A DNA stretch of 64,000 bases from Tomocerus qinae (taxonomy: Eukaryota > Arthropoda > Collembola > Entomobryomorpha > Tomoceridae), in NCBI GenBank assembly GCA_020055645.1, contig CM034546.1, positions 42,284,001 through 42,348,000 of the forward strand, read 5' to 3'. The stretch's first letter is position 1; each line of letters begins with the position of its first letter. Positions 12,101 to 30,674 of the stretch are shown here, piece after piece. The notes under the pieces are model-generated. The model searched no databases and had not been told where the DNA came from. It saw only the letters and a list, made by a program, of their open reading frames with translations. The translations under genes and the position numbers were made by a program.

Positions 12101-13459
12101 CCAGAACACGATGTCACCCACTTGAAAGAAAATCAATTGAATAAATATCAACGCATTTTACGAAGACATCAAGAAATCTGGAAACGATGGGAAAAGGAAT
12201 ATATATTGACTCTTCAAAAGAGGTCAAAATGGACAACAAAACAGCCCAATTTAAAACCAGGAGATTTGGTACTAATAATGGAAGACAATCAACCTCCACT
12301 ACAATGGCGAACTGGACGAATAAAAAAGGTTCATCCAGCAAAAGACGGTCTCATTCGCGTTACAACAGTCGAAACGCAGAGCACTTATAACGAAAAGAAG
12401 GACAAACTACAGAAAACAGTCAAAGAATTTGTCCGTCCCATATCAAAATTAGCAAGATTACCTGGACTTGATGAAGAAGATTTCGATGTTCCCATGCTTC
12501 CATACACACTTGATAACAAACCCACTAATACTGAAACCAAGATTACGCAAGTTAACCACGCCAAGGGTTGTTATGATGTACCAAATCTACGTAAAAATCA
12601 ATGTCTTAAAACAGATGCATGGCCCTGGATTTACTCAACAATTGTGTTAACTATAGCAAATGCGACAAAAGTATCAGCACAAGAACAACAGCAAAATTCT
12701 CATGTGAAATCGTGGTGGTCTACAACATTTGTTTTTTATTGTGTCGTTATTTTCGCAATTCTCGGAACTATTGGAAACACAATGACGTTACTTGCTATCA
12801 GCAGAACACCACAACTCCGTCGAAACAAGTTTAATTGGCTTATCATGAGTTTGTGCTGTTCAGACTTACTCTTTAGCTGTGTTACTCTCCCATTGACAGC
12901 AATTAGGTATTACTACGATGCCTGGATGCTGGGAAACTTTATGTGTCAAGCTTATGCGTTTCTACTTTACGGAAATTTGTGTTGCTCACTAGCAAACATT
13001 ATGACGATATCCATCAATAGATACGTTTGCATTGTTCACCACTGGAATTACCCGAACTTGTTCTCCGAATATCGAATATGGGTTATGATCTTGGTGACAT
13101 GGAGTTTGAGCTTTTTGATGGTCACTCCCCCAGCCATAGGTATATGGGGAAAATTTGGCCCCAAACCTAACAATCCAGCTTCTTGTTCAATTATTCCAGA
13201 CAAAATAATCTGGATAGTAGGCATATGCCTTCCTACAACAATTATTCTTTTTTGTTACGCAAGAATCTTGGATTACACACGAAAAATAAGAAGACAAGTT
13301 AGCTTACATGGAAGTAGAGGAATCACAGGATATGAAAATAGGAACCAAGAAGAAAAGCAATTATTTCGAATGATCTGCTACGTGTTTCTGGGATTTCTAA
13401 TCAATTTTCAACCAGTTATACTTCTGAATCTATATGACCCAAAAAGAGAAAAGTTGTAA
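6161..13459 (+). CDS. BEL Gag-Pol polyprotein running in frame into a seven-transmembrane receptor
   Basis: The frame has 2432 codons from ATG 6161. A basic, charged N-terminal region is followed by a DUF1759-like gag core (residues about 395-580) and CCHC-type knuckles (about 695-765). The aspartic protease has LLDSGA near residue 824. The reverse transcriptase has FYVDDF near 1240. RNase H begins with FCDAS near 1413. The integrase has a zinc-binding H/C region and the DDE residues in CGVDCAGPF, YSDNGTNF and GGSWEAA. A DUF5641-like C-terminal segment ends near residue 2100. The frame then continues without a stop into the receptor described separately. No frameshift separates gag from pol. 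It ends at TAA 13457-13459, between TM6 and TM7 of the receptor, and reopens in the same frame. ATG 6161 is the first in-frame start ahead of gag. Confidence 0.93.
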   Translation: MSNPQDGQQPSHSRARQPNKPPPPGSPPTTRQRGPPEYPNRPDLGQSPYHAAKFKHANPLSTPHKESATLLSDEEFAKELRKTQRRLASPEKDSDPFAHISSTRGTNPLQRASSRTTSSALSTSQPHPSVEAVSSPGSVPVLQANPDTPSLPRPERQSILSRVSQTLFGSGQQHDSVERGKNTTTPFNSPPRTRVGTAQGPYTPPRMSGRNEEENRDDNRDERRLNGDNAEGGDRSLGGGGGNEDRRGDDNEEDGGRRNRDNQERQNDRLEGVDADDARQEHYNSHDMIEHSLTKLRLLLNNHDNQVRVLSLIDTEIYIDELKDIKYEIIHQHKNCFKLFSNYRGDEEFSQQEYALDSHKRLELRYVDILQRFMALSKQLSPTTPTTVNNTGNKLKIPKFSLPKFSSKPEHWSAFKDSFDTVVIKEAAFSPSQKLRLLNDALKHGTRENINNDLKITDQNWATAWKRLTARYDTPREMAHAALKPILDLPTMITQTEDGINRIVDIARAAEAHLKEVPTQVPYYHVIFVHFIIGRLDGKTAKAFNDSIKNDDVPTFEQCLDFLSKKAKALGLNEQIRNTCKQTRNQSKELRFHKSRREPRVMVATQDTEGETTDNYSDTDTSCTSMTSGGSICNVSGEPRRKRQSKRKKDRKKSVNFAGRSESRPRRNDQSRSPSPANRRHAPSRARQKSPNRDPHQNTCPMCKSRDHKVQSCPKYLEMSVNARIEWVKKNRRCFNCLSAMHQVRNCTSKFVCMNCQGRHHTTLHKSKEKQRSSSPHQGGSQPTVLNHSKLILDDEEEEIGLLPTAIVNLQHPSNGRTCKVRCLLDSGAQNSFITEKMAKQLRLEGFGEIKKFTVAGGKTIPSLGRTVLRIQSLVDLDKSYQVIAYILPDITSPLPNQSFNRKELTHLNGLPLADPNFNETKPIELLLGSAIYDKVMEAKKISGPSGTPSAYKTTLGYVVLGETRDETAQLCCTAIKRKDVVPIPMAPFNMEVFWNLESLPTKKPMTEIEKFCEEHYVKHTKRLPNGRYQVSWPFIDSVERLGHSEATAIRRWLSTEARLKKFPQLKTEYDAQFEEYLKLGQMELIVSESENPDRRPKHYYIPHHPVFKPDSSTTKVRIVFDASAKTSSGVSLNDILAPGPTIQPDLFDQVLYFRIKPIAAMADIAKMYRQIFTAKEEWDFARVVWRKTSEDPISHYRIRIIPFGVTSSPWLACRTLRQLAQDEGQKYPLAAQAVKTHFYVDDFMTSFSDLSTAKEAKNQLIDMMASAQFEIRKWHSNSKQFLKSIPPHLQELSEDPLKIDSTTTVKTLGLQWLPVADEFMFTVNLDTSKLHTKRTVLSDISKVFDPLGLLAPVITKAKILMQTIWAHEIDWDQPIPEPILTNWLHYANNLKQLENIRIPRCLNYDDTSTWELHGFCDASEKAYGAAIFLRGRNENRVTINLVAAKTRVAPTKTVTIPRLELQGALLLEELAEYIKKLWDIQYSAVHLWCDSTIVLNWIHSDPARWKIYVANRIVQIQELSTKEQWHHIASEDNPSDCASRGLDPEELRNHPLWWHGPKWLSQPDYPIPTFNPSTCMNEFDESEAKKNAICMVSTQNGNQVLDSLARISSWKKAIRVMAYILRFTHCQYVGKSVIIGPLELAAAERKLAGLIQTQAYPDLGIGHKKKKQDPFQNLDLFKDHEGIFRVGGRLKNSPLPFEAKHPILLPENHPLIKAMILHTHTILAHAGKQTINAHIRQRYWIPNGLKTIKSVINKCLICFRYKARPETQLMGQLPPARFSDLRPLLHCGVDCAGPFEIRNHTGRGGPFKVWLTLFVCMSSRAIHLEIVSTMSIDGFLLAFRRFISRRGRPSHMYSDNGTNFVGASNRMEDFHSQMTTAIRTRNKVLPDIEFEKIIWQFSPPAAPHKGGSWEAAVKLVKYHLKRLIDNDISKYTWEEFETITTFVEGVVNSRPLTAMSEDPKDLEVLTPAHFLISTSLTMNPEHDVTHLKENQLNKYQRILRRHQEIWKRWEKEYILTLQKRSKWTTKQPNLKPGDLVLIMEDNQPPLQWRTGRIKKVHPAKDGLIRVTTVETQSTYNEKKDKLQKTVKEFVRPISKLARLPGLDEEDFDVPMLPYTLDNKPTNTETKITQVNHAKGCYDVPNLRKNQCLKTDAWPWIYSTIVLTIANATKVSAQEQQQNSHVKSWWSTTFVFYCVVIFAILGTIGNTMTLLAISRTPQLRRNKFNWLIMSLCCSDLLFSCVTLPLTAIRYYYDAWMLGNFMCQAYAFLLYGNLCCSLANIMTISINRYVCIVHHWNYPNLFSEYRIWVMILVTWSLSFLMVTPPAIGIWGKFGPKPNNPASCSIIPDKIIWIVGICLPTTIILFCYARILDYTRKIRRQVSLHGSRGITGYENRNQEEKQLFRMICYVFLGFLINFQPVILLNLYDPKREKL

Positions 13460-13600
13460 AAGTTAGTGCATATTGCAAGCGCACTACTTGCTTGGTCATC
13501 TTCATGGACCAACGTGCTCATATATGCAATTTCCAATAAACAATACCGAGCCGCCTTCAAGCAAATGGTGTTACCCCAACGACGAATGAGCAACACGCAG
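12600..13600 (+). CDS. Captured rhodopsin-family GPCR (Tre1/Moody-like) inside the BEL element
   Basis: A hydrophobic, signal-like stretch (12620-12680) comes first, then seven helices. TM1 has GTIGN; TM2 has SLCCSDLL. TM3 has a Cys near its start and the motif NRY in place of DRY. TM4 has its Trp, and the loop after it has the partner Cys in ASCSII. TM5 and a basic third intracellular loop follow, then TM6. TM7 lies after the TAA and carries NVLIY where most receptors have NPxxY. NRY plus the WGKFG and SCSI text after TM4 resemble the insect Tre1/Moody orphan receptors, from family knowledge. It is in frame with pol upstream and envelope downstream, so it is carried cargo and not a nested host gene. 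The TAA at 13457 would remove TM7 unless read through. Ligand unknown. Confidence 0.85.
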
Positions 13601-15547
13601 TCATCAGCAACTATTGTGACTACAACAATATTTTTGCTCCTAATTGGATCCGGAATGGCCACATTCCACCAAACACAACCTGATGTCTCGCAAATCACCT
13701 CAGCATGTGAATACGAATGGCCACCTCATCATCAAATTCCGAAAACTATATCATGGCTCCATATCAAGGAAAATGGCACATTATGTTACCGAAATTTTAG
13801 TTGTGGTGCCGGAAAAATGATTCAACCAGAAGGAACTGACTGTATATCCCTTAAAAGTGAGTCACAATGTAAGGAACTCCAAGAGTTAACATTGGACGAA
13901 ATAGAGTGTCAATCACACTATACAGAACCTGATCCAGCTGTTTTCTATTTGGATGAAACAAGATCACCACTCTGTGCAGTAGGAGATCACACCCTGAAGC
14001 ACTGTCAACATTTTGTAGAACAATATGAAAATGTGCCAGTTGTTATACACAACAATCACGTCTACCCAGTTTCACACCTCAGCATGCAACAAGACGCACG
14101 AGTTGATACATATGAATCATACACTTGTCAGGGCTCCTGTAGTAAACAAAAGTGTACTACTTCCAAGTCTTGCAAAGGAGACAGACAATTTTGTGAACAT
14201 TTTGGTTGCACGAATTCCATACGTGCAGATTGTGAGTGTCACTACAACTCATCTACCATCCTACATAGAATGACATCATCCTTAGAAGATTTTTATCCTC
14301 ATTGCTGGGGAACAATGCAACTATTCACTCGAAAGGAAGATTTAAGCAAAGGACAAACGGTTTACCCATGTGCTGCATGTACCATCGAGTGTGCAAGAAC
14401 CGGTTTGGAAATTTATACCCCGGGGGTCATTCCAAAATATATAAAAGCACAAAGGAACCCTGCATTTGCTGCCACCATTCCAACTTCTTCCACAACAGCC
14501 CTAAGATTCACAAATAGTATGCTCAGTTCTCCAGGGAAAATAGAAGTAGAAATCTGGATACTGGATTACGACCACCCCACAATTAGGCAACTCTCATGTC
14601 CACGTATCCCATTTTGTGAATTATTAACGTGCCACCTGTGCACTGAGAGATGGAAAAACTTTTCTTGCTACACCTACGTACAATATACTATTATAGTTAT
14701 TGCGACAGTAGCCGTTTCTTCCATCATTTTCACCATTGTCTACATAACAAGAATCATTTGCACCTTAATCCGTTGCTTATCTTGGCCTTTACGAATCGCT
14801 ATACGATTCATGCGGGCGAAGAAAAAGAAACCAAAACCCATCGCTAGAGAATCGGAAGAAGACATGGGCATTAGCACACCCTTGTTAGAAGTAGCTCCTC
14901 ATAATGCACCACCGAAAGCAACAATTGAGACCAGAAACGAAACCCGCACAGATGAACGACGAAGTTCATCACGTGTACGTAGACGAGACTATTTCCCCTC
15001 TAGATTGCTTACGATTATATCTTTAGGCTTATCTATCTTATTATGCCAATCCTGCTCGGATTTTTCCTCTATTTCAGCGCAATCTAAAGAATGTCATTAT
15101 ACATCAGATTCAGTTACGACATGTACAATTCGCATTAATACAAGGCTTTCTTTAGCAGCCCTCGATCAAAAAACTTGTTTTAAGATTCAAGATGCGAAGA
15201 GTCAAGTCTTAGGATCGATAATCATAGAAACAAAATCTATCGCCCTAACATGCATGAAGGAACTACTATACTATATTCCAAGAGCAGTACCCCATTGCAC
15301 TAGCACGATAAAATGCTACAATTTGTTTAGTTCACCACTGTGCCACGGAACCCATTGCGAGGATTTCGGCATTAATTCTACATTGAAAGAATTCAAACCC
15401 ACTGAACAAAATCTTGGCTGGAATTACTGTAGTAATTTCCGCCATAGTTATTGCTTTTGGGCAGTTCCCTATGATTGTAATTTCTACCGTGTTGCGTTAG
15501 TAAATCCCACCAATCAAGTATACAGGGTTTGGAAATGTACCGAATAG
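13460..15547 (+). CDS. BEL envelope region: receptor TM7, Gn-like subunit and start of Gc
   Basis: This is the same frame as gag-pol, reopened after the TAA. It starts with receptor TM7 and a short tail. An in-frame ATG at 13586 opens a hydrophobic signal-like stretch, probably the start of the envelope unit. A Cys-rich ectodomain follows, then a membrane helix (about 14680-14775) with a very basic cytoplasmic tail. A second signal-like stretch (about 15000-15075) leads into another Cys-rich ectodomain. This Gn - helix - tail - signal - Gc plan is that of phlebovirus glycoprotein precursors. Phlebovirus-G2-like envelopes are known in some other BEL/Pao retroviruses (Cer7, Tas). The frame stops at TAG 15545-15547 inside Gc. 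Sequence divergence is high, so the family call rests on architecture and Cys pattern. Confidence 0.75.
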   Translation, partial: KLVHIASALLAWSSSWTNVLIYAISNKQYRAAFKQMVLPQRRMSNTQSSATIVTTTIFLLLIGSGMATFHQTQPDVSQITSACEYEWPPHHQIPKTISWLHIKENGTLCYRNFSCGAGKMIQPEGTDCISLKSESQCKELQELTLDEIECQSHYTEPDPAVFYLDETRSPLCAVGDHTLKHCQHFVEQYENVPVVIHNNHVYPVSHLSMQQDARVDTYESYTCQGSCSKQKCTTSKSCKGDRQFCEHFGCTNSIRADCECHYNSSTILHRMTSSLEDFYPHCWGTMQLFTRKEDLSKGQTVYPCAACTIECARTGLEIYTPGVIPKYIKAQRNPAFAATIPTSSTTALRFTNSMLSSPGKIEVEIWILDYDHPTIRQLSCPRIPFCELLTCHLCTERWKNFSCYTYVQYTIIVIATVAVSSIIFTIVYITRIICTLIRCLSWPLRIAIRFMRAKKKKPKPIARESEEDMGISTPLLEVAPHNAPPKATIETRNETRTDERRSSSRVRRRDYFPSRLLTIISLGLSILLCQSCSDFSSISAQSKECHYTSDSVTTCTIRINTRLSLAALDQKTCFKIQDAKSQVLGSIIIETKSIALTCMKELLYYIPRAVPHCTSTIKCYNLFSSPLCHGTHCEDFGINSTLKEFKPTEQNLGWNYCSNFRHSYCFWAVPYDCNFYRVALVNPTNQVYRVWKCTE

Positions 15548-16618
15548 CGAAATTCAGTCAAACTAAGTATAACTCAACACTTAGGAAAGACATCCACAAC
15601 TAATGTGACTACTCTTCATGCCGGTATTCCCGTGAAATTTGGTAACTTAGAATTTACTTTAATATCAGTTATTCAACCCTATACCCCTGTACTAAATCAA
15701 TGTTTAGTCTCTCGTAACAACCAATACAGTTTATCTGCATGTTTAAATCGCGGACAAACAGAAATTGGAAGTGTAGGAGAAATTGCATGTCCCACAGAAA
15801 ATGAAGCCCGACTTCTAAGTCAGAAATGTTTTGCTAATCTTGGTATTGTGAGAGCAATTCCCACTCAAGACGGAGTTAAATGCGTTTCAGACTTGGTTGA
15901 TCCAGAAAAGATTTTAGCTGAGAATAGACTCCCTCTCAAACTTGAAAATGGAATATTATTATCTGAACATGGCAACATAAGTTTCATGTCCTCATCCACC
16001 TCAGCACTAGAGATACAAATGACAACTAATGACCTCCAGATAACGAAAGAAGTTCAAGATGTCACGTGTACTGTCGAACTACTTGGCGTTACTGGTTGCG
16101 CATTTTGCCAGCAAGGTGCAGAAATTAGTTTAATTGGCAAGGTGGACGTTGGAACTGAAGTAGGTACCTTAGAATGCCTAGATGCTGCTTATTTTGCCCC
16201 AGTCGAACTAACTGAACAATTTACCAAACACCAACTTACCATTAAATTGTCCCAGACAGTTATTAATATGAACTGTACATTTAAATGTGCCAGAAACACA
16301 ATTCCCCTAACCCTTACAGGTCACTTACATTACTCGGAGGATGTGGATGTGAGAAATGAGATCACAGAAACATCTTTTCCTTTAAATGAAAGTATGAATA
16401 CAAACGAGTCAATGGACTCTGGTTTAAATTGGGACAATTTTGGATTCAACTGGGCCAACCTCAAAACAGTCATTCAACTGCCTTTTACTGTTGGTTCATT
16501 TTTATCCTCAATGTTTTCCTCATGGATTCTAAAAGTAATCATAATCTTAATTATTATAGCTTGTGTAGCTGGGATAATATACCTATGCTCACAAAGACTT
16601 GTAAAGAAAATGATATGA
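15548..16618 (+). CDS. BEL envelope, C-terminal part of Gc-like subunit
   Basis: This continues in the same frame after the TAG, with no other stop until TGA 16616-16618. It is a Cys-containing, beta-rich ectodomain with several N-linked sites. A single membrane helix (about 16525-16590) with a short basic tail ends it. This matches the stem and anchor of a class II (phlebovirus G2-like) fusion protein. No ATG lies near its upstream end, so it is unlikely to be an independent gene. It is either the distal part of an envelope made by stop readthrough, or the remains of one broken by a nonsense mutation. Confidence 0.75.
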   Translation, partial: RNSVKLSITQHLGKTSTTNVTTLHAGIPVKFGNLEFTLISVIQPYTPVLNQCLVSRNNQYSLSACLNRGQTEIGSVGEIACPTENEARLLSQKCFANLGIVRAIPTQDGVKCVSDLVDPEKILAENRLPLKLENGILLSEHGNISFMSSSTSALEIQMTTNDLQITKEVQDVTCTVELLGVTGCAFCQQGAEISLIGKVDVGTEVGTLECLDAAYFAPVELTEQFTKHQLTIKLSQTVINMNCTFKCARNTIPLTLTGHLHYSEDVDVRNEITETSFPLNESMNTNESMDSGLNWDNFGFNWANLKTVIQLPFTVGSFLSSMFSSWILKVIIILIIIACVAGIIYLCSQRLVKKMI

Positions 16619-16858
16619 ATAATTTAGTACGTAGTCACCTATATAAAAATAAGAACTAGGATAAGATTTCCGCTCAGCTACGGAAAATGTAATTAAATTA
16701 AGTTTTTCCGTTCTACAATAGACATAAAATTAAGTACAATAGGACCACTATTATAAAAATAGCTTGCAAAATATGTCACCAAAATAGTATATAAACATTT
16801 TAATTTCTCTGTAATAATTACTTAAGTTTTAATAAGTAAACACCACTATTTGTATAGT

Positions 16859-17908
16859 ATGGATACTTCTCAGCCCTTCTTCAACGGAACCATGGAGGAA
16901 CTGGATTTTATTCTTAATACTCCAGTAAATTCAGAAACTTTGCTTCCAAAATCACCGGATATCGCTCCTTCCCCATGGCGACCATTTTCTGTGTCACCAT
17001 ACCCACCGTTGAATGACCATTCAGATCTTATAACATTGGGAACCGAACGACCAATGGATCTAGCTGCCAGACCTCAGTCCAACACACACTCAGACCCAGA
17101 ACAAAACGATTCAGCACCTGAAACTACAACATCCGCACATAGTAGCAAAGACCTATTGTTCTCAAATCCACCTGACGCTGAAAGTGCAATACTGGACATA
17201 TTATCTAACCCGCCGTTACTGGACGTGGCTGCCGCTATCAATGAGTTACTTACCACAGAACCACTGCCCACAACCAGTCTACAGGAATTCAATGAAACCA
17301 TCTTCCAAGATTCCATTTTCAACCAGATGGAAGATCATCAAATAGCCTATAATGCCAAGGTCCAAGAAAATCTGGCGTTAAGGCAGAGAATTGTTAATTT
17401 GGAAAACACCGTTTCCTCCAGTAATCAATTCGCCAGCTTTCGGGCAACACGAATTAGATTTTTGGAGCGTTATGCTGTAGATTTGAACAACGAAAAGGGC
17501 CGCCTCCAGCAACCATTAAACACCTTACTACAGCCAGGCCCGGCAGCCGTACATCCATTAAGTGACCCGACAACTCCTTTGTCCGGACGAGAAAGAATGC
17601 TCCAAGAAGATATGCAATATTGGTTTGCCATGACCCAATCATTAAAACTAGACTTAGAAAAAGCAAAGGAGGAAAAAGAAAAAGCAGAATGGGACTGGAG
17701 TCGAGAAAACCAGAATCACATAGAAGCATTGGACACAATACAAACACTCCAAAAGCAAATTAAAAGTATGCGACTTCGCATACTACCACTACACCGACGA
17801 AATACTACGCAAAAATCACAACCGACCTCAGCAAAGAAAAATGGATCGCTTATGAAGAAAACTGGACTGCCCATAAAGAAACGGAAGCCTAATATGACCA
17901 CAGAATAA
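16859..17908 (+). CDS. BEL accessory ORF X, coiled-coil protein, 349 aa
   Basis: I do not recognise the family. The ATG at 16859 (MDTSQPFFN) is chosen over the upstream TTG in the same frame. The bases TTTGTATAG-T just before it look like a splice acceptor one base from the ATG, as expected for a retroviral spliced message. The first 150 residues are acidic and rich in Ser, Pro and Thr. Residues about 160-200 and 250-310 are charged, heptad-like helices. The C-terminus is strongly basic, with Lys/Arg runs resembling a nuclear localisation signal. An acidic N-terminus, central coiled coil and basic end could suit a transcription or RNA-binding regulator, but that is inference. It is free of stops, unlike the envelope upstream. 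Confidence 0.75.
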   Translation: MDTSQPFFNGTMEELDFILNTPVNSETLLPKSPDIAPSPWRPFSVSPYPPLNDHSDLITLGTERPMDLAARPQSNTHSDPEQNDSAPETTTSAHSSKDLLFSNPPDAESAILDILSNPPLLDVAAAINELLTTEPLPTTSLQEFNETIFQDSIFNQMEDHQIAYNAKVQENLALRQRIVNLENTVSSSNQFASFRATRIRFLERYAVDLNNEKGRLQQPLNTLLQPGPAAVHPLSDPTTPLSGRERMLQEDMQYWFAMTQSLKLDLEKAKEEKEKAEWDWSRENQNHIEALDTIQTLQKQIKSMRLRILPLHRRNTTQKSQPTSAKKNGSLMKKTGLPIKKRKPNMTTE

Positions 17909-18119
17909 TACGTTATACCACATCATGAACTACTTATAATCTACACAGACAGTTCTTTTATTCCTCAATCTACTTTAATCAATCTTAACTCTATATCTCC
18001 AGTGAACAAACTTAAACAGTAATCAGTCTAATATTGAACTCTGTCAGAATCTTATCTCGTCTCTTCAGTTCCCTCTTTCAAGTTTGTGCCAATCAACTTT
18101 TGTTTTGTGTGCTTCTCTC

Positions 18120-19304
18120 ATGGAAGTTTACGAGGTACTATCTACCCCTGACCACAGCGACAGTGATAGTGATTGCTCAGTGCAAGTATTAGAAGCTCCT
18201 CCACCTCCATGCAATTTGAACCATTGTGAAGGTCACAAAAAATTTATTGAACTCAATCGAAAATTCGATCAATTAAAACAGTGGAACAGGAAGTGTCGTG
18301 CAAGCTACATAGAAACAAAGAAAGACTACAACCGTGTGTTAACTGAACAAAAGGAAGTAGTTCCTGTACTCACTAAACTATGCAATATTGTTGAATCCAC
18401 CAACAATCAACTAGAGTTTACTAATCTGAAGTATAGACGGACCTATTCTGACCACAATAAGTTAACTTATAACCATGATAAATTAAAAACAAAATTAAAA
18501 GTAGTTCAAAGTGAGGTAAAAGTAGCCAACGACCAGTATTATAAATTACAAGATCAGTTCAAGGACTTAGAAGATGTTTATAACGAAAGCAAACTCGGCG
18601 CCCATGAATCAACACTTGAAATCCAGCAACTAGAAAAAGAGCAAGAACAATACAAAATATTAAAAGGAAAATATGCTAAAGTGGTTTCTCACTACACTAG
18701 CATGAAAAAATCGGTTAAGACTATCCATCGCGAGAATGACGAGCTAAAACAAGAGAAGGCTTTACTAGAAGCTGAAATCCGGGATGTCCGACAACAGCTC
18801 TTAGAGGCTCAACCCGCCGGACAAGACATTCTTCGAGAAGAAGTTGATGTCAAAAATGCAACAATTGCTGAGTTGACGAAATCTCTTCGATATAAACATA
18901 CCCAGCTGTGGCAACAAACCGAAGAGGCGGAAGAAGAAAGGAAAACAACAAGGTCTCTGCAAAAAACCAAAGCTGTCCTGAAAGACAAAATCCAACATCT
19001 TGAGATGGTTCTGGAGAATTCTAAGGAAGGACTGGAAATACAAAACGAAGCCGTCGGGAAGTTGCAAACCGAGTTGCAACTTACACGAAATAGATGCGCC
19101 CGCCAGTACATTCGAAGATCTTTACTACTTACAGTTATCCGAAATGAAGACACACAAACACTGGCTCTTCGCTCAGCCCAACGTGCAGTTGAAAGAACTC
19201 GCCACATGCGTCGTCTCATGTGGATCCATAAATCCTATCGCTGCAAACTGTCCCAAATAGTTCAGAAGAAGATTTCCAGCCACCGTCAATGCAATTCAAA
19301 CTAA
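18120..19304 (+). CDS. BEL accessory ORF Y, long coiled-coil protein, 394 aa
   Basis: I do not recognise the family. ATG 18120 opens a short acidic, Ser/Asp-rich start (DSDSDSD near residue 20) and a Pro run. Almost the whole remainder is predicted coiled coil (about residues 45-330), with dense Lys/Glu/Gln/Leu heptads. A basic tail follows, with RRSLLL and HMRRLMW-like text. The sequence CTCGTCTCTTCAG, ending at 18068, is a good splice acceptor about 50 bp before the ATG. It lies downstream of ORF X with no overlap and ends about 120 bp before the 3' LTR. Two coiled-coil ORFs between env and the 3' LTR are not a standard BEL feature. The absence of stops suggests recent function. Confidence 0.75.
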   Translation: MEVYEVLSTPDHSDSDSDCSVQVLEAPPPPCNLNHCEGHKKFIELNRKFDQLKQWNRKCRASYIETKKDYNRVLTEQKEVVPVLTKLCNIVESTNNQLEFTNLKYRRTYSDHNKLTYNHDKLKTKLKVVQSEVKVANDQYYKLQDQFKDLEDVYNESKLGAHESTLEIQQLEKEQEQYKILKGKYAKVVSHYTSMKKSVKTIHRENDELKQEKALLEAEIRDVRQQLLEAQPAGQDILREEVDVKNATIAELTKSLRYKHTQLWQQTEEAEEERKTTRSLQKTKAVLKDKIQHLEMVLENSKEGLEIQNEAVGKLQTELQLTRNRCARQYIRRSLLLTVIRNEDTQTLALRSAQRAVERTRHMRRLMWIHKSYRCKLSQIVQKKISSHRQCNSN

Positions 19305-20668: not shown

Positions 20669-20672
20669 AGTC

Positions 20673-21096
20673 TATGAGGGTGTGGACGCAAGTGCTCACG
20701 AAATATGCAGTCCGCATACACGTAGAGCGGTCCTAGTTCGCCTTTATTCTATTTATGCCAGAAATGATGAAATAATATGTATGATTCAAGTTACCCGTGA
20801 TACCGAAAAGTCCAATAATGCCCGATGATCCACAGGAAAGTTCAGGAACACAATGTGTTATTTATTGCACACAAAGAATATTCAACTAGAATGGAAAAGT
20901 GTACTTTAGAAAATAAAGAAATAAATGTAATGAACACAAAACTGGCGTAGTCTCCCCGTCCCAGGTTCTCCAGCAACTGCCGTGTCAAACGGAGCTCCTC
21001 GCGTAGTCTTTCCGCTGCACTATGCAAATTGGTGGGTTGCTGAGGTGGATGGTTGGGTGGTGACGTCATGAGGAGTGGGCTGTAGCCATCCTCATA
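20673..21096 (-). repeat. Gypsy 3' LTR
   Basis: It is 424 bp with 7-bp inverted ends (TATGAGG/CCTCATA). It holds a 75-codon open frame on the minus strand (20842-21069), also intact in the other LTR. It supplies the stop codon of the exonuclease ORF. Confidence 0.93.
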
Positions 21097-23131
21097 TCCT
21101 CCCCCACTTCGATCCCCCCCTCACTGTGCGGGTGTCGGATCGAAACCGCTGGTCATACGCAGGAAAATGGTGTCGTCCGAGATCGTTTGTTGTCTCCGTG
21201 ACAGTCCTCCTATGGTAATACTCTTCCCTTGGTCTCGTACGATACTCTGGCATCCTTGACGGCTGTCTTTCGTTCTGTGGTCTCATCCGATTGTCTCGTA
21301 TCCTGTTATCCGGTTTGGTTCCTCTCGATGTCGAAGGACCATTCTGTCTATGGTTCTGCTGTAACTTCTTCCTAAGTCTCTTGATCTCCTGGTTTTTCCT
21401 GTAGAGTTTGTCTTTCAAGAGTTGCTTCTGATAGGCTTCTGGATGTTCTTCCTTCAGATGAGCTAATTTGGCCTTCCGGTTCCTCTTATTCGGGCAATTC
21501 TTCCCTAAGTGGCCTTTGAGTTGACATTTACTACATCTTACTGTTGAGAGATCTTGGTGTCCATTTGGTACTTGATCAGCTTCCGGTTGATCTGGTCTCC
21601 TTGGTGGTTTTAAGTCATTGTGACTGTTGACATTTGGAGGTACTCTTCGTGGCTGGTCAGAAGTACTTTCTCCAACTTTCTCTCTTGGTGGGGTTGCGAA
21701 CTCATTGTCCGGTGCGTCGACACGTAAGACGTCGTCTTCCCATGATTCTTCCTGGGGATCCGCTGCAAAGAATTTTGGAGCATTCGTCATGATGATGGTT
21801 TCGTCGTCACTGACTATCTCGTAGTATTCAACGTTGCTGTCCTCGTCGTCTGATAATGGGGGTCCAAGTGTAGTATGTCCCGCCGGCTGATTCTCGATAA
21901 CTGCGTCCTCAGTAAAGATGTCTACTATATGTTGGCGGTATGGAAGAATTAAAACATCCGTGAATGGATCTAGTATTTTTGCCACTTCCTCGAAGGATTT
22001 AGGATTCTTCTGTACCAATGTCCGCAAAGTATATGACGAAATAAGATTGAGCTCGCTCTCATCTAAAGATTTTGCCATGTCCCGCCTCCATTCGTATAGG
22101 TCTACTAGTAGTTCTTTCTGCTTCGCTGAAAACTTCCCGAACTCAGGATCTGCTTTCGGATTGGGGGCTTTTCTATGACTGTAGATGACGTTAGCAGTCT
22201 TGTTGGACTTCTTTATGATGTCCCGTCCATCAACTGTGTCATCGATATGATGGTAACATTTTGCCCAAACTTCCATAAGTTTAGCACTGTCTGTTGCCGC
22301 ATACTTCCGCTGTCTATCATGAAGTGGTCGCTTCCTCCAGTCAGAGTAGGTGCAGAGATGATCCGAAGTAAACGTAGGTTCTTTTAGAATTGTTCGGACC
22401 ATAGTGTCAAAAGCGACGTTTTCGCTTCCACCGACGATCTTGAAGTACAAGTGTTGAGTGTCAATAAGTCCAACGGTGAAGATTTGGTAGTCTCTTTGAA
22501 GATGTCGAAAGTCATTAGATGAGCCATGAGCTATTTTGATGACATCCGGGCTTTCAAAAATTGGTTTGAGACGTTTTACGATAAACTTGGTCATTCCGGG
22601 TGCAAAGGGGTCAATGAGGTAGGTCTTCCCCATGGTTGAGATTTGGATTAATGCAGTCATTCCGTGAAACGAATGAGTGTCGTGGTTCTCCAGGTCAAAG
22701 GCAAAAACTGTCACATTTTTCAATCTGCGGTATAAGTCTTCGGCTCTATTGTTGTCATTGACGAACAGTGTATGGCCAACCGATTCTGGTTTAGGTTTAA
22801 GCATAGTTTTGGTCGGTTTCCAAGTTCTGATGATCTCGGCATTCGGATTTCTTGAAACCGGAAATTCGTCTTGACGGTTCAGGTAACGTCTTTCGTTCAG
22901 ATACTCTGGATTCTCTTCTTGAGGCCTCTTGAGACAAACTCCTAATTGACGTGAAGCTTTCCTGACTTTCACATGATATTTGTCCTCCGGATCGTACGGA
23001 AGCTTAAATGTATGATCCCCGAACAAATCTTGCTTGGCGGCTACGCTTCCAGTTGACTTCCGGGTGAACACACCCTTAGTATTGCGCTCCCGCAGGTTGT
23101 TACGATGCCCGTCTTTCACGTATCTTGACAT
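21092..23131 (-). CDS. Element-borne DEDDy 3'-5' exonuclease with HRDC domain and CCHC knuckle
   Basis: This 679-aa ORF resembles the RNA-processing exonuclease Rrp6/EXOSC10. Residues about 120-300 form the exonuclease domain. Motif I is FAFDLENH (D146, E148), motif II is SSNDFRHLQ (D207), and motif III is YAATD (Y277, D281), so all DEDDy catalytic residues are present. SDWRKRPL also fits Rrp6. Residues about 335-405 match an HRDC domain. A retroviral-type CCHC knuckle (C533, C536, H541, C546) and a basic tail follow. An acidic linker joins HRDC and knuckle. The ATG is one base after a splice-acceptor-like CCACAG (23133-23137). The end reads through the polypurine tract and stops inside the LTR. 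It likely degrades or trims RNA from the 3' end; targets are unknown. It replaces env. The CCHC knuckle is not part of standard Rrp6. Confidence 0.9.
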   Translation of the reverse strand: MSRYVKDGHRNNLRERNTKGVFTRKSTGSVAAKQDLFGDHTFKLPYDPEDKYHVKVRKASRQLGVCLKRPQEENPEYLNERRYLNRQDEFPVSRNPNAEIIRTWKPTKTMLKPKPESVGHTLFVNDNNRAEDLYRRLKNVTVFAFDLENHDTHSFHGMTALIQISTMGKTYLIDPFAPGMTKFIVKRLKPIFESPDVIKIAHGSSNDFRHLQRDYQIFTVGLIDTQHLYFKIVGGSENVAFDTMVRTILKEPTFTSDHLCTYSDWRKRPLHDRQRKYAATDSAKLMEVWAKCYHHIDDTVDGRDIIKKSNKTANVIYSHRKAPNPKADPEFGKFSAKQKELLVDLYEWRRDMAKSLDESELNLISSYTLRTLVQKNPKSFEEVAKILDPFTDVLILPYRQHIVDIFTEDAVIENQPAGHTTLGPPLSDDEDSNVEYYEIVSDDETIIMTNAPKFFAADPQEESWEDDVLRVDAPDNEFATPPREKVGESTSDQPRRVPPNVNSHNDLKPPRRPDQPEADQVPNGHQDLSTVRCSKCQLKGHLGKNCPNKRNRKAKLAHLKEEHPEAYQKQLLKDKLYRKNQEIKRLRKKLQQNHRQNGPSTSRGTKPDNRIRDNRMRPQNERQPSRMPEYRTRPREEYYHRRTVTETTNDLGRHHFPAYDQRFRSDTRTVRGGSKWGRI
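21095..21125 (-). other. Gypsy polypurine tract
   Basis: On the minus strand the purine-rich AGTGGGGGAGGA lies against the 3' LTR, with GAGGGGGGGAT just upstream. It overlaps the last codons of the exonuclease. Confidence 0.7.
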
Positions 23132-23257: not shown

Positions 23258-23630
23258 GTTTTAACACCGTGGGTTGACGTTTAAAAGATGGTAACCCCAG
23301 TGAGTTGACTATTCTTAAGTAGTAACCTCAGTGGGTTGACGCTTAATACATGGTAACCTCAGTGAGTTGACTGGTTCTGAGTAGTAACCTCAGTGGGTTG
23401 ACTGCTATTTGAGTGGTAACCTCAGTGAGTTAACTAGTTCTGAGTAGTAACCTCAGTGGGTTGACTGCTATTAGAGTGGTAACCTCAGTGAGTTGACTGG
23501 TATTATAGTGGTAACCTCAGTGGGTTGACTGCTATTAGAGTGGTAACCTCAGTGAGTTGACTGTTATTAGAGTGGTAACCTCAGTGGGTTGACTGCTATT
23601 ATAGTGGTAACCTCAGTGGGTTGACGTTGT
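23258..23630. repeat. 32-bp minisatellite inside the gypsy element
   Basis: About eleven to twelve copies share the core GGTAACCTCAGTGRGTTGAC plus a variable 12-bp spacer such as TGCTATTAGAGT. GTGAG and GTGGG variants alternate along much of the array, suggesting a two-unit higher-order repeat. The spacing is close to 31-32 bp throughout. Confidence 0.9.
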
Positions 23631-23881
23631 AGAGGTGCCCTTATCTAATGGAGATTGTTGTGGTGACCAGTTGGCTAACACGCCGATGTATGTCTATCTG
23701 TGTTTATTTAAATAATTTAGCTGGAATATGCAAAATTTTTGTTTATGTGTCCTGTTATGATGCCAATTGAAATTGAAAGTACGGATGAAGAATATCCGTA
23801 CCACGGTAAGAATGTGATACACACAATAATACACTAACTTAACCTATAATGAACTTCTATATACAGTATAAAAGAAGATGT

Positions 23882-24552
23882 TTAGTGGTAGTATTTTGAG
23901 TACTGTCCAGGGACGTACTGATGTCGTTTCGGGCGCAGAGTATTAGAGTCGCCCGTAGAAACTTCTGGCTTCTTTCTTGATTTTGAAGGAATTTTTGAAA
24001 CAGAAACATTTTTTTGTGGTTTTGGCATTTTTAAATAAAGTTTAGGAGTATTTTTCGAACGTTTTAAATACGGTTTTATATCCGAGACGTGTCTCTTCCC
24101 TAACGAAGATTTTGTCTTCTCGTCAAAGATTTCATAAGTGACAGGTGTGATCTGTGACTTAATGATGAACGGACCTTTCCACGCGGGGGCTAACTTCGCA
24201 GAAAAGTTCAGCGCCGCATCGGAGAGTACGTGGTTCCTTATTAACACTTGCTGATCCACAGCATAGGAAACTTGACGATGATGGCGATCATAGTCATCCT
24301 TATACGCAACTTGGGCTTCATCAATGTTGTCCCTAACCCAATTGATGATCTGCAACAGTTGAGCTGGGACTTCTTCCAACTTCTTCCTCGCAGCATCAAA
24401 ATCAATTTCTCTTGATTCCATGAGTGTCCTATCGAATGGTAAAGCAATCTCTCTTCCGAGGTTAAGCAAAGCAGGGCTGGCTTGAGTAGTGTCATGCACA
24501 GCAGAACGTAACCCGATTCCGAAGAACTGCAGTTGCTCATCCCACGAAGATT
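23882..24552 (-). pseudogene. Gypsy integrase C-terminal part, displaced by an insertion
   Basis: The frame beginning with SSWDEQLQFFG continues the gypsy integrase after its catalytic core. It includes the usual ALLNLGREI text. The C-terminal chromatin-contact-type fold follows (VLIRN, LAPAWKGPF, HVSDIKPYL), then a basic tail. It is out of frame with the upstream pol because a 44-bp telomeric palindrome sits between them. The ATG at 24499 is internal and probably not a true start. Confidence 0.85.
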
Positions 24553-24553
24553 G

Positions 24554-24597
24554 TTAGGTTAGGTTAGGTTAACCTAACCTAACCTAACCTAACCTAA
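24554..24597. repeat. Palindromic telomere-type insert in the integrase gene
   Basis: It has three TTAGG units plus TT, then AACCT repeats ending CCTAA, 44 bp in total, meeting head to head at 24570/24571. The inferred frame displacement between the two integrase parts equals 44 modulo 3. No obvious target duplication is seen. TTAGG is the canonical arthropod telomere unit. Confidence 0.85.
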
Positions 24598-27500
24598 ACA
24601 CTTAATCATAGTCTTCAATGTACTATTCACTCTTTCGACCTGGTTAGGTTGCGGGTGATACACACTCGTAAACCTGTGATCCACACTCCAGTCTTTACAT
24701 AACTTCTTCAACTTCTTAGAGATAAATTGAGCTCCATTATCTGAAATAAGTATTTTTGGGGCTCCAAAATGACAAAAGATCCACTCCAGCCAATACTTCA
24801 ACTGCGATGAAGTCGCTGCTCTCATTGGGATCAACTCAACCCATTTTGACAATTGGTCTTGAACAACCAGTAAATATTTATTCGCTCGTCCTCCCGAACT
24901 GGTGGGGAACGGTCCTTGAAAATCCACATATAGTGTATGAAAAACGGTCGGTGCGACGTCCGAAATTCCCATCAAACCTGCTTTCAGTTGATGCGATGCT
25001 TTAACTTTTTGACAAGTGTCGCAAGACTTAACATATTCTCTCACATCTTCCTCTAAATTGGGCCAGTACGCTCGTGATCTCACACGACGTAAAGTCTTCC
25101 TTATGCCCATATGACACGCTTCAGGTACATCATGAAACTGAAACAACACGTGTGTCCTCAAACTCTTCGGAATAAATGGAAGTAAGTATTTCTGTGACTT
25201 CTCCTGTTCAGTGTTGGCTTCTCCAGTACCAACTTTTTCACTATTCTTGCTTTTAGTGTGACCGCGTGCACTCGGTTCCCGCACACTATTATCCAACTTG
25301 GGAGTAACGGTTTTGCCATTAACCCTACTGTCATCTGTAGAATTTACTACTTTCTTCGATGCAGCTTCCTTAAGCAATTTCTTAGAACATCCTTGCTTCT
25401 CATCCATGCTAGGTTTACTGCCTTCTTCTGCTGATTGCGCAACTTCAGCAGATGCAGTCTTCAATTCAGCTCGTTCCTCTTCTGAATTCGCTCTCAGGTG
25501 ACCCTCACCATGAGCTGAACGATTCACGCTCCTCCAATTCAAGTCCATGACTTTGTAGAGTAGATTGTCCTTGAAGCAGTACTGTGAGTTCTTCGTGGCC
25601 ATCGAATTACCCATTACTGACTTCAGAATCTTGTTGCATTCTTCATCCGTTTTCTGTTCTTTTCTGATCTTTGCAAGATCTGGACCTTTAAATAGTAATC
25701 CAAAACATGGAACGAACATGACATCCGGATCCTCATCGACAAAATTAGACTCATTTCCCGTAGGTTCCACTGGAGCTCGCGACAACGCGTCCGCTATCAC
25801 ATTCTCCTTGCCTGAAATATGGCGAATCTTGTCTAAATAAGGTTGTAACCGAAGTGCCCATCTTCCTAGTTTGGTGTTTGAGTCCTTGTTTCCGTTTAAA
25901 TATTGCAAAGCTTTATTATCCGTTAAAATGAAGAAGTCTTCACCCCAGATGTAGTCATAAAACTTCTCTACTGCCCACAAGATTGCTAAGAGTTCCTTTT
26001 CGCATGCATGAAGACTTAGCTCAGATTGTCGTAATAACTTGCTAGCAAACTGAATGATTCTTTCCTTCCCGTCGATGTTCTGCGTTAGAATAGCTCCTAG
26101 TCCAATACTAGATGCGTCGCACTTGATGATGATTGGATATTCGTAGTCGATCCCGTTGAGCATTGTGTTTTCGCACATATACGATTTTAAGGTTTCAAAG
26201 GATTTCTGCTGTCTACTTCCCCAATACCAAGTCGTCTTCTTCCTTAACAAAGAGTTTAAGGGTTCTGCAAGTGTGGCGAAGTGTGGGATGAACGCTTGAC
26301 AGTATCCAATTTTTCCTAAGAATCTTCTAACTTCCTGTACATTCTTTGGAGCTGGATATTCCTTGACTGCTCTAATTTTCTCTGGATCCATACTAATACC
26401 TTGAGCGCTGATTACGTGACCCAAAAATGTTATAGAAGTCTTTGCAAACTCGCATTTTTCTCTGTTTATAGACAAATTTGCTTGCTTCAATCTATCGAGG
26501 ATAATCTGCACGTGTTTGTAGTGTTCTTCTAAAGTTTGTGAAAATATAATAATGTCGTCGACAAAAACGAAAGCGAAGTTCCCGATTAATCCATCCAAAA
26601 CTTTGTTCATGAGTTCCACAAAAGTTTTCGGTGCATTCTTAAGTCCAAATGGCATTACTAAAAATTCGTATAGAACGCCATCTACTGTGAAAGCTGTCTT
26701 CTCAATACTATCTTTATGCATTGGAATCTGCCAAAATCCTGACCGTTGATCGATACGACCAAAGTAAGCTGCTTTCGGTAAGCTCTTTAAGATGTGTTGT
26801 CCGTTGTGCATCGGAGTCCTGTTTGTTCTTGTTACTTTGTTGACTTTCTTGAAGCTGACACACATTCGTAAGTCTCCGTTGTGTTTGGGAGCCATGACAA
26901 CGTTAGAGTTGTAAGGAGAATTTGACTGACGAATTAATCCTTTCCTGACAAGGTCTTCGGTTTGTCGTCGAATTTCTTCGGCTATTTTTCTACCCGGTCT
27001 TCTGTACGGTGTATATACAGGTGTATCAAGTGCATCGATGTAATGTTCGATAAGAGTTGTTTTTCCGAGCACATTTTTCCCAGTTACTGTAGGATATTGG
27101 TCTAATAGATCGTTAAACATTTTCTGGATATCTTGTTCCGTTACTGATCTTACTTCATTAAAATTAAGTGCAAATAGATACTTCCTCGGTGTTCGATTGA
27201 TGATTGAATAATTTCGGTGTTTCGGATCGTCCTTTAACCAAAACGTATTTCCCTCGTAGTCTAAAACCATACGTGAAGATATAATAAGATCTTTCCCAAT
27301 CAACACAGGAACAGCCAATTTTTCCATAACGTAAAATCGATGAGTAATCCTTTTATGGCCTAATTGAATTTCTAAGATTAACTTGCCGATTGGAGTAACT
27401 TTTTGTCCATCAGCCATAGTTTGTGGTCTGACGGGACACGTTTCGATTCTTCTAGCAATTTTCTGTGCAAAAGATTTCCGAATAAATGAAAAATCCGAAC

Positions 27501-27645
27501 CCGGATCGATATATGAAGGAGTTACTGTAGCTGTGTCGTTGAAAAATACTGAAACTGCTGATAAACGTTGGTTTAGTTCTTCATCTTTTATGGGAAGACA
27601 GACATCAGGAAAATATTCTGCCTCCCCCGTTACTGGTTTAAAGAA
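24589..27645 (-). pseudogene. Gypsy Pol: protease, RT, RNase H and integrase core
   Basis: The frame opens at 27645 and overlaps gag by 16 nt in the -1 frame. The protease region has IDPGSDFSFI where D-T/S-G is usual. RT has LVMPFGLKNAP and FVFVDDIIIFS. RNase H has IKCDASS, a catalytic Glu in CEKELLAIL, and FILTDNKAL. A low-complexity, charged insertion of about 100 residues (around 25240-25550) follows. The integrase then has its HHCC finger and the DDE residues in YVDFQGP, ISDNGAQF and NQVERVNS. The frame runs into the telomeric insert and stops at 24589. Pol is therefore truncated in this copy, although RT and RNase H are intact. Confidence 0.9.
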
Positions 27646-29225
27646 TTATTTTCTTCAGGGTAATATTCTTGGGATTCCTCGACCCAATTTTGATCTTCAT
27701 CATGTACAGCCATAAGTCTGCCTCTTCTCTGGGGACAGTCGCGACTTTTGTGGCCGAACTCTCCACAAGTATAACATTCGGACCCTTCGCGTGGTTGTTG
27801 CCCGGTTCCTCTGCCCTGAGAGTTTTGCTGGGATCTGTTTCCTGAAGTACTTGGGCCAGAGTTTTGATTTTGCCAATTATTTTGGGATCTTTGTTGTTCT
27901 TGGCGATTAGTACCATTGTTCTGTGACTGATACTGTTGCTGATTCTGTTGCTGCTGATTCCGTTGATATTGCTGATTCTGTTGATTCTGCTGGTTGGTCT
28001 GTTGGCGATTCTCGCCCTGACCTCCGAAATTCTCACGTCCGTTTCCTCTGAAATTTCCTCTTCCACGGAAATAATTGTTTCTCCCTCTGTAGGATCCACT
28101 TCCTCTAAAGGGTCTTCCTCGTCCATTGTTTTGTCCGTTACCTCTAACTTGTACACCAGCATCAGGGGCTAAAGAATTTGCTTTGCCTTCCCTGGCATCC
28201 TGTGCACGTAAGTCTTCAACTGCCACTTTGGCTCTTTCAATAAGGTTGACTGCTGTGTAGGCTCCAATGTCTCCCATTGCAAGCTTGATGCGCGGTAACA
28301 GGCCTTGCCTACATCTCCTTATTGACTCCGCCTCTGGTTCATCAGGGAAAACTTGTCTTGCTAACCGTAGCATGTCCCAAACGAACTTCTCTACGTTTTC
28401 TTTCTCCCCTTGGGTCTTCGACATCAGGTACTGAGTCCTCTTATTGCGTTCCAGCCATGTATCATACTTTGCTATGAAAGCATTCTTGAAGTCATCCCAA
28501 GTCCAGTCTGGTTGTCGTACATGTTCGAACCATGCTTTGTTCTCCTTGATGAGAATGGTAGAGAGCATATACAGCCATTGATTTCTTGCATATCCCTGAC
28601 TAGTGTAGTATGCTTCTATGTCTTGCAGGTAATTAGCTGCTGTTGTCTCATAAACGTTATATCTTGGCATAGGGACGTTAGGGTTTCCAGGTCCTGGATG
28701 ACGCATATACTGATTTCCATTGGGGATCGCCTGTCCATTGGCATTGGGGATCTGCTGTCCATTTGCGTTGGCAATGTCACGACCATTTGCATTGGCAATG
28801 ACGCGCCCATTTGCATGTTCTTGTTGCCTGAAATGTTCAATTATCAGGCGTTGTTGCTCCTCAGGCAAATTAAAACGAAGATGCTCTGGTAGCTGATTGC
28901 CTGGGACCACATTCAAAATGTTCTGCTGAGGGATTACATTAAAATTATCTTGTTGGGGACCGGCATTCAAATTATTTTGTTGGGGACCTCTCTGTTGATC
29001 CGCAGCATTTCCCTCTGCATTATTATTCCTATCCATGATTTCTTCTATATCACTCTCTGATTCTTGTGAAACCTGCTCCCCAGGTGAGTTGCTGTTAGCC
29101 TGTCGGGGACGTCTACGATACCTTTCAAGTCTTGCTTGTATCCTTCTCTGTATTTCTGCTTGAAACTCTGGATCGTGCCTTCTGTTAAGTCTTGACCTCC
29201 TTTCCGATTTCTCGCTATCACTCAT
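27630..29225 (-). CDS. Gypsy Gag, 531 aa
   Basis: ATG 29225 begins a charged N-terminal region. A run of imperfect 11-residue repeats built on ANANGR and PNANGQ follows (about residues 138-170). The capsid-like gag core comes next (ETTAANYLQDIEAYY to about residue 355; LWMLSTILIKENKAWFEHV-like text is typical of gypsy gag). An RGG/RGR-rich stretch (about 370-405) and a Gln/Asn-rich stretch (about 405-470) precede one CCHC knuckle, CYTCGEFGHKSRDC. The order of RGG box, Q/N-rich region and knuckle suggests strong RNA binding and possibly condensate behaviour, which is inference. The frame is intact. It ends TAA at 27630-27632, just after the slippery site. Confidence 0.92.
   Translation of the reverse strand: MSDSEKSERRSRLNRRHDPEFQAEIQRRIQARLERYRRRPRQANSNSPGEQVSQESESDIEEIMDRNNNAEGNAADQQRGPQQNNLNAGPQQDNFNVIPQQNILNVVPGNQLPEHLRFNLPEEQQRLIIEHFRQQEHANGRVIANANGRDIANANGQQIPNANGQAIPNGNQYMRHPGPGNPNVPMPRYNVYETTAANYLQDIEAYYTSQGYARNQWLYMLSTILIKENKAWFEHVRQPDWTWDDFKNAFIAKYDTWLERNKRTQYLMSKTQGEKENVEKFVWDMLRLARQVFPDEPEAESIRRCRQGLLPRIKLAMGDIGAYTAVNLIERAKVAVEDLRAQDAREGKANSLAPDAGVQVRGNGQNNGRGRPFRGSGSYRGRNNYFRGRGNFRGNGRENFGGQGENRQQTNQQNQQNQQYQRNQQQQNQQQYQSQNNGTNRQEQQRSQNNWQNQNSGPSTSGNRSQQNSQGRGTGQQPREGSECYTCGEFGHKSRDCPQRRGRLMAVHDEDQNWVEESQEYYPEENNSLNQ
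27636..27642 (-). promoter_or_regulatory. Programmed -1 frameshift slippery site, U UUA AAC
   Basis: On the minus strand the heptamer TTTAAAC lies in the gag frame as T TTA AAC, two codons before the gag stop. It sits inside the short window (27630-27645) where gag and the -1 pol frame are both open. This is a canonical slippery heptamer in the position expected for Gag-Pol synthesis. I could not fold the RNA downstream. Confidence 0.85.
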
Positions 29226-30170: not shown

Positions 30171-30594
30171 TATGAGGGTGTGGACGCAAGTGCTCACGAA
30201 ATATGCAGTCCGTATACACGTAGAGCGGTCCTAGTTCGCCTTTATTCTATTTATGCCAGAAATGATGAAATAATATGTATGATTCAAGTTACCCGTGATA
30301 CCAAAAAGACCAATAATGCCCGATGATCCACAGGAAAGTTCAGGAACACAATGTGTTATTTATTGCACACAAAGAATATTCAACTAGAATGGAAAAGTGT
30401 ACTTTAGAAATTAAAGAAATAAATGTAATGAACACAAAACTGGCGTAGTCTCCCCGTCCCAGGTTCTCCAGCAACTGCCGTGTCAAACGGAGCTCCTCGC
30501 GTAGTCTTTCCGCTGCACTATGCAAATTGGTGGGTTGCTGAGGTGGATGGTTGGGTGGTGACGTCATGAGGAGTGGGCTGTAGCCATCCTCATA
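30171..30594 (-). repeat. Gypsy 5' LTR
   Basis: It is 424 bp and about 99% identical to the other LTR (roughly four substitutions). The 75-codon minus-strand frame at 30340-30567, starting MTSPPNHPPQ, is intact in both copies. Confidence 0.93.
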
Positions 30595-30674
30595 AGTCTA
30601 CTACACATGAATTAATATAAAAATTTGCAGTGTTTTAAGATGAAGCAAATGATGTACCGAATTCTGATTATCTA

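Follow-up and report, generated by a model that had tools for sequence, protein, structure and literature searches.

Long terminal repeat (LTR) elements of bdelloid rotifers, namely Juno and Vesta as well as Athena/Terminon, carry a DEDDy-type third open reading frame (ORF3), for which a role in 3' end processing or silencing has already been proposed (Rodriguez, Kenefick and Arkhipova 2017, PMC5408684). Orchid Ty3/gypsy elements are reported to have gained an N6-methyladenosine (m6A) demethylase domain (PMC9289625). Extra genes are expected to stay in retroelements only if they pay. We analyzed a 64,000-nucleotide stretch of the genome of the springtail Tomocerus qinae (contig CM034546.1, positions 42,284,001 to 42,348,000; hereafter the window), which contains, on its minus strand, a ~9.9 kb Ty3/gypsy element encoding an Rrp6/EXOSC10-related exonuclease in the position of env. 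The original prediction had stated that Ty3/gypsy elements normally carry env or nothing in this position; an exonuclease in an LTR element is not unheard of, given the bdelloid ORF3s published in 2017. In our estimate there is about an even chance that the gene was captured and kept as a third gene whose product would act, within the particle of the element, on the 3' ends of that element's nucleic acids.

The exonuclease ORF (21092..23131, minus strand) was intact, running from an ATG at 23131 to a TGA stop at 21094-21092 and encoding 679 aa with zero internal stops. From the integrase part to the LTR, it was the sole ORF of at least 120 aa. Pfam detected a DEDDy 3'-5' exonuclease domain (22259..22762, minus strand, residues 124-291; DNA_pol_A_exo1, 4.5e-29) and an HRDC domain (21974..22120, minus strand, residues 338-386; 2.2e-6, 49 of 68 profile positions). 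The DEDDy residues of the window ORF (D146, E148, D207, Y277 and D281) were invariant in all 25 aligned rows, which comprised six cellular proteins and 19 ORFs from the Tomocerus qinae genome, 16 of them gypsy-linked. Of these 19, 18 belong to another family or copy than the window ORF, and 17 of the 18 share 21-35% identity with it. Among ten sister ORFs scanned with Pfam, HRDC rose above the cut-off in L025 and L027 alone, and L013, L019 and L028 gave no HRDC match. PMC2NT, the N-terminal exosome cofactor domain of Rrp6, was found neither in the window ORF nor in the ten sister ORFs (Pfam at E 0.1), so the element protein is Rrp6-derived at most and not an Rrp6. Pfam, the alignment and the ORF list therefore agreed with the original prediction of an intact ORF with five DEDDy residues and an HRDC domain as the only ORF after pol; its placement in the env position of a gypsy element was borne out by the LTRs, the target-site duplication, the gag/pol order and the sister loci.

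The surrounding element contains gag and then protease (PR), reverse transcriptase (RT), RNase H and integrase in order, between LTRs and a short target-site duplication, the arrangement by which we recognized it as gypsy. Its 5' LTR (30171..30594, minus strand, 424 bp) and 3' LTR (20673..21096, minus strand) have the inverted ends TATGAGG/CCTCATA and are flanked on either side by GACT (30595..30598 upstream, 20669..20672 downstream). BLAST matched the LTRs over 430 bp with 6 mismatches, 2 of them outside the LTR, and the 4 mismatches remaining in the 424 bp LTR alignment suggest that the insertion is probably young. On the minus strand follow a gag-like ORF of 531 aa with a CCHC knuckle (27630..29225), a pol ORF with protease-like, RT, RNase H and integrase zinc-binding and core parts (24589..27645), and the SH3-like C-terminal part of integrase (23882..24553). 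This last part lies in a different frame from pol, whereas in the copy L009 the integrase C-terminus and the rest of pol share one frame; judged by this frame shift, the pol of the window copy is probably broken, unlike its exonuclease. A tandem-repeat array of ~32-bp units (23269..23657) lies between pol and the exonuclease ORF. Tandem repeats occupied the same spacer in 6 of 17 loci scanned (L009, L010, L013, L021, L022 and L023); the repeat unit, 30 to 96 bp long, varied from family to family.

The end of the exonuclease ORF is joined to the element itself. Its last sense codon spans the LTR border, its stop codon forms bases 3-5 of the 3' LTR, and its last codons contain a polypurine-tract-like stretch directly before that LTR (21097..21122, minus strand, limits approximate), which would be the place where plus-strand DNA is primed. 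Because the stop lies inside the LTR and the polypurine stretch inside its codons, the ORF belongs to the element. Chance or a neighbouring host gene as the source of the ORF was excluded by the LTRs, the target-site duplication and this overlap. The overlap with the LTR was established for the copy in the window. A purine-coded C-terminus, GR plus a hydrophobic residue right before the stop, was also present in L009, L011, L012, L021, L022, L025 and L026; the ORF ends differently in the L013-L017 lineage, L020, L023, L027 and L028.

We examined the occurrence of such ORFs across the genome (334,443,149 bases, 115 contigs). A PF01612 search gave 106 matches, a total that takes in host genes and split pieces, and 20 loci of ~10 kb were chosen among the upper-ranked half. 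Of these, 17 had same-strand matches to gypsy gag, RT or integrase on the upstream side, and L018, L019 and L024 had none. The window ORF has a close copy in L009 (96%) and further close but broken copies in L012, L010 and L035; L030 was also broken. A protein search of the genome with the window ORF gave 69 matches. RT places were located with 500 residues of the window RT, which yielded 86 matches (those scored of 593 first-look candidates) and, after four split ones were merged, 82 places. An exonuclease was counted when its match lay at most 9 kb downstream of the RT on the same strand. Such a match accompanied 27 of the 28 RT places at least 45% identical to the window RT, 11/14 at 38-44%, 5/19 at 35-37% and 0/21 under 35%. 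Since the exonuclease search can miss divergent ones, the numbers for the lower identity classes are lower bounds, with absence judged there mostly from match lists.

Within the nearest class, 25 of the 27 exonucleases lay 2.4 to 4.1 kb from the RT, with odd distances of 476 bp (C4:20476068) and 7856 bp (C1:51228203, inside a tandem array). The single exception, C3:102389, held an exonuclease remnant, pieces of which match the exonuclease of L023 at up to 88.6% identity. At C1:25090732 a divergent exonuclease in two overlapping frames had been missed by the match search; no exonuclease was present in the 3.2 kb examined at C1:97148136 and C1:36023325, and C1:24604859 and C1:60989914, partial RT places without a match, were taken from match lists only. 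Past the integrase, two outgroup elements without the exonuclease had a 170-aa CCHC ORF (L076) or no ORF of 90 aa (L077). Other gypsy copies with the same ORF, which the original prediction had proposed to look for, were thus found among the sister loci and the nearest RT places; sister elements lacking it, the contrary case that it had named, did not appear in this class, the 28th place being a remnant.

The RT tree (32 rows) split 15 exonuclease-bearing rows from five without a match, with branch support 100/99; flanks were examined for L078 and L079 of these five, and L080, L081 and L082 came from match lists. Four pol proteins from JGI or ENA metagenome-type records (P0078, P0079, P0080 and P0083) nested in the exonuclease-bearing clade, so the trait should extend beyond the Tomocerus qinae genome, as judged from pol alone. 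The RT (15 rows) and exonuclease (14 rows) trees shared their main groups, namely window/L012 with L026, L021/L022 with L023, L020, L013-L017 and L027, and disagreed within L013-L017 and on the weakly resolved L011. A recent single capture was ruled out by this co-inheritance with pol, seen in the RT tree and in the agreement of the two trees. The simplest reading would be one capture from the Rrp6 family with vertical inheritance since, the singleness of the capture having moderate support; taken together, the results read as an old capture that was passed on stably and under selection.

Selection on the exonuclease was measured as the ratio of replacement to silent changes (dN/dS) in 18 pairs, four of which were saturated at synonymous sites. 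The other 14 ranged from 0.07 to 0.59, and in 12 of them replacement changes were significantly fewer than silent ones (p from 0.0007 down to 7.5e-48, treating sites as independent). Several pairs share rows, so the 14 are not independent tests, and in two with dS >3 only the direction is safe. By region, the pairs of the window with L010 and L012 (WIN-L010 and WIN-L012) gave 0.04 and 0.13 for the exonuclease domain, 0.18 and 0.10 for HRDC plus linker, and 0.12 (on 47 codons) and 0.40 for the acidic part; the window and L009 are too close to tell by region (exonuclease 0.87 on four changes, acidic part 1.1). The RT rows of this comparison were the best open ORFs, in L009 mainly RNase H to integrase, and the RT value of 0.91 for L025-L026, which compares unlike broken frames, was not used as evidence. 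Purifying selection across copies was thereby confirmed, and values near 1 throughout, the contrary outcome, did not occur.

We next considered the origin of the exonuclease. In a sequence search of solved structures, yeast Rrp6 came first (5.9e-21), followed by trypanosome Rrp6 and human EXOSC10, all ahead of RNase D (4.5e-7), WRN and MUT-7. A search of 5.8 billion proteins gave 53 matches with the window ORF and 76 with a 16-row alignment of element ORFs; for the alignment, the best match was annotated as exosome component 10 (2.7e-60), then came Rrp6-type and then RNase D-type proteins. In none of the alignments listed was more than 43% of the ORF covered, leaving a tail without a relative found, and two pattern scans of viral contigs gave no relative. 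An AlphaFold model (40 homologues, no templates) had a mean predicted local distance difference test score (pLDDT) of 67, with core blocks mostly at 87-97 and large parts below 50. The 13 best Foldseek matches of this predicted fold were all Rrp6, which is support and not independent proof because the homologues in the AlphaFold alignment include Rrp6. A further tree combined the element exonucleases with cellular enzymes other than WRN, EXD1 and Egalitarian; it was rooted on the host MUT-7 genes L033 and L034, and the long branches L018 and P0015 were left out. Its Rrp6 group, including the host multi-exon gene L029, was supported at 96/94. With host MUT-7 genes as the outgroup, this tree does not test MUT-7/Nibbler affinity. 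RNase D or Nibbler affinity was rejected on their matches, weaker than those to Rrp6 in both sequence and predicted fold. Sequence ranking and predicted fold thus sided with the original prediction of Rrp6/EXOSC10 affinity over Nibbler/MUT-7 or RNase D. The tree joined the element exonucleases to Rrp6, against RNase D, with support of 90/65 only, and capture of the ORF from the Rrp6 family is moderately supported.

In the same tree L019 and L024, which lack gypsy flanks, adjoined the gypsy exonuclease group (84/91). Their exonuclease ORFs (L019 reverse-complemented, 5791-7074; L024, 6245-7537) are 63% mutually identical and resemble the element ORF in their CCHC knuckle and basic tail. They are possibly host Rrp6-like paralogs, the source or offspring of the element gene, and such knuckle-bearing exonuclease ORFs outside gypsy may show where the gene came from or returned to. 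Open frames of like length (428 or 431 aa) occur at C2:16877701, C1:123764685 and C1:123754585. The intron position shared between the host Rrp6 gene and L019/L024 was approximate only, with differing phases, and was not used. L018, without a gypsy match, and L036, with a CCHC-type motif in another frame, form a divergent exonuclease pair by eye.

The C-terminal region of the window protein contains a CCHC zinc knuckle, CSKCQLKGHLGKNC (21494..21535, minus strand, residues 533-546), which fits the exact pattern C-x2-C-x4-H-x4-C; none of 20000 shuffled versions of the translation contained this pattern. It was present in 12 of 23 exonuclease ORFs (window, L009, L011, L012, L021, L022, L023, L025, L026 and L027, plus L019 and L024, which have no gypsy flanks), including those nearest to the window with the exception of L020, where similarity to the window protein continues beyond the ORF stop. 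This distribution suggests that the knuckle was probably present early and then replaced or lost in one lineage. The tail of the protein is basic and partly helical, residues 547-597 being helical in the AlphaFold model, and would be suited to RNA binding.

We propose that an Rrp6/EXOSC10-type gene entered an ancestor of the gypsy clade downstream of integrase and that the clade has kept it as a regular third gene; in the sequence, its position, origin, co-inheritance and selection support this. With its catalytic residues present, the protein would most likely be an active 3'-5' exoribonuclease. The zinc knuckle and basic tail would most likely anchor it to the RNA-protein particle of the element itself, where it may trim the 3' ends of element RNA, primer or cDNA intermediates in the service of element replication. 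Several results weigh against this proposal. The zf-CCHC match of the window ORF (13.4 bits, E 0.085) lies under the Pfam cut-off, and the pattern is absent from 11 of the 23 ORFs (eight of the L013-L017 lineage, L018, L020 and L028); missing from that whole lineage, the knuckle cannot be needed everywhere. The added knuckle of the original prediction hence stands as an exact pattern and a family feature, and neither as a Pfam-level match nor as something peculiar to the window copy. Support is not strong for the 18 gypsy exonucleases as one group (84/85), nor for joining them, L019/L024 and Rrp6 as sister groups with RNase D outside (90/65). The pair of the window and L009 gave a dN/dS of 0.59 (p 0.14). 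Finally, for the same rows the exonuclease tree has branches ~3 times the length of those for RT, as might also be expected of a host-fighting gene.

These long branches, with catalytic residues invariant, favour the main rival, counter-defence, in which the enzyme destroys or shortens Piwi-interacting or small interfering RNAs of the host, or other element-silencing RNAs, in trans. Retention of the gene in the nearest elements fits it too, as do the host MUT-7/Nibbler-type genes L033 and L034 (exonuclease plus Mut7-C), from which small-RNA trimming may exist in the host. However, the nearest relatives of the element protein are Rrp6 and not Nibbler/MUT-7, and the knuckle and basic tail would point to binding of longer RNAs; we regard counter-defence as unlikely, though a serious contender. 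Catalytically dead DEDD derivatives such as Maelstrom and EXD1 serve RNA pathways (PMC5408684), and the ORF could likewise encode an RNA-binding or structural protein in which catalysis no longer matters. This is improbable given that all five catalytic residues are invariant in all 19 aligned ORFs, despite their divergence from the window, and that exonuclease-domain dN/dS is low in both informative window pairs.

The window/L009 value and that of L025-L026 (0.29, p 0.13) belong to the youngest of the 14 pairs, cannot be told from 1 and qualify the otherwise clear dN/dS result. Together with the broken copies, they are what a host gene copied by chance and useless to the element would leave behind. 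Against such a passenger stand purifying selection in the other 12 pairs, retention in the nearest RT class, the agreement of the trees and the overlap of the ORF end with the LTR, so that we consider it very improbable and, as far as sequence goes, refuted. Least probable of all is a functional replacement of env in cell entry or exit: the ORF occupies the env position, but it encodes a basic protein with a nuclease fold, and Pfam found no membrane or glycoprotein (env-type) family in the window ORF or ten sister ORFs. Action on the element's own 3' ends remains the reading that we prefer. A bolder claim, possible but doubtful, is that these elements form an old, genus-like gypsy clade in several host species, defined by an Rrp6-derived nuclease that replaced env and became an essential RNA-level weapon or replication-processing enzyme, and would be the first lineage of retroelements in which a cellular exoribonuclease is conserved and under selection.

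Further repeats and neighbouring genes were observed. At C1:51211543-51238061, three equal-score RT places lie exactly 8330 bp apart, as do the exonucleases at 51215835 and 51224165, with a third 13.4 kb on (51237558), a spacing that suggests one element repeated in tandem. Another multi-copy exonuclease-bearing repeat is seen at C1:31817901, C1:114091334, C3:10898901 and C4:3403105, which have equal PF01612 scores and the same 181-aa open frame. Elsewhere in the window, 6140-16618 on the plus strand holds a BEL/Pao polyprotein (DUF1759, Pao peptidase, RT and integrase parts) whose ORF runs on into a rhodopsin-type seven-transmembrane receptor domain at residues 2212-2433 (7tm_1, 4.6e-37); a phlebovirus-like glycoprotein G1/G2 comes next, in two ORFs. 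At 16826-19304 on the plus strand, ORFs of 360 and 432 aa gave weak Pfam matches alone, mostly to coiled-coil-type families.

An Rrp6-type nuclease kept under purifying selection, whose frame runs into the polypurine stretch and the LTR, makes the use of an RNA 3' end nuclease by a retroelement testable, and an exonuclease-bearing gypsy clade connects the biology of retroelements with the exosome and with defence by small RNAs. Among cellular enzymes, the element protein resembles Rrp6/EXOSC10 in its exonuclease and HRDC core, by sequence and predicted fold, and differs in having no PMC2NT found and no exosome partner known and in being retroelement-encoded. The Rrp6-type protein P0010 (JGI record) has PMC2NT, exonuclease and HRDC as well as a CCHC knuckle; the combination of Rrp6 with a knuckle is therefore no novelty on its own. 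Trypanosoma brucei RNase D (PDB 7C42 and others) is likewise a DEDD exonuclease and was deposited as a CCHC-type domain-containing protein, but it is a cellular gene with a Foldseek value of 1e-9 versus 1e-22 for Rrp6. MUT-7/Nibbler shares the DEDDy exonuclease and matches in fold, although its sequence and fold matches are far weaker than those to Rrp6.

Among mobile elements, the orchid gypsy elements (PMC9289625) are alike in having gained an extra RNA-acting enzyme domain; enzyme and hosts differ. In the parts of the openly licensed literature available, no other report of such an ORF was recognized beyond Rodriguez 2017 and the citing papers PMC5718144, PMC6431247 and PMC6338049, and no HRDC-bearing or clade-wide case came up. 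The closest system is thus that of bdelloid Juno and Vesta, compared here by the description published in PMC5408684. Both are LTR retrotransposons with an ORF3 after pol that encodes a DEDDy exonuclease with preserved acidic residues, and a Cys/His motif reported in Vesta2 and Vesta5 recalls the knuckle of the Tomocerus qinae elements. The bdelloid ORF3s are described as family-specific, gained at least twice and absent from the earliest branches, whereas the Tomocerus qinae ORF was kept through the nearest RT class. Their motif changed to DEED, whereas the Tomocerus qinae ORFs keep DEDD; they resemble each other across transposable element types more than they do cellular DEDDy proteins including Rrp6, whereas the affinity here is to Rrp6. 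The Tomocerus qinae exonuclease also differs in its HRDC domain. Bdelloid elements carry a dUTPase between PR and RT, which was found in none of six pol proteins (window, L011, L013, L022, L027 and P0078), and their LTR ends are TG...CA, compared to TATGAGG...CCTCATA in the window. It is therefore well supported that the gypsy exonuclease is not the first capture of this sort but a more stable variant than the bdelloid case.

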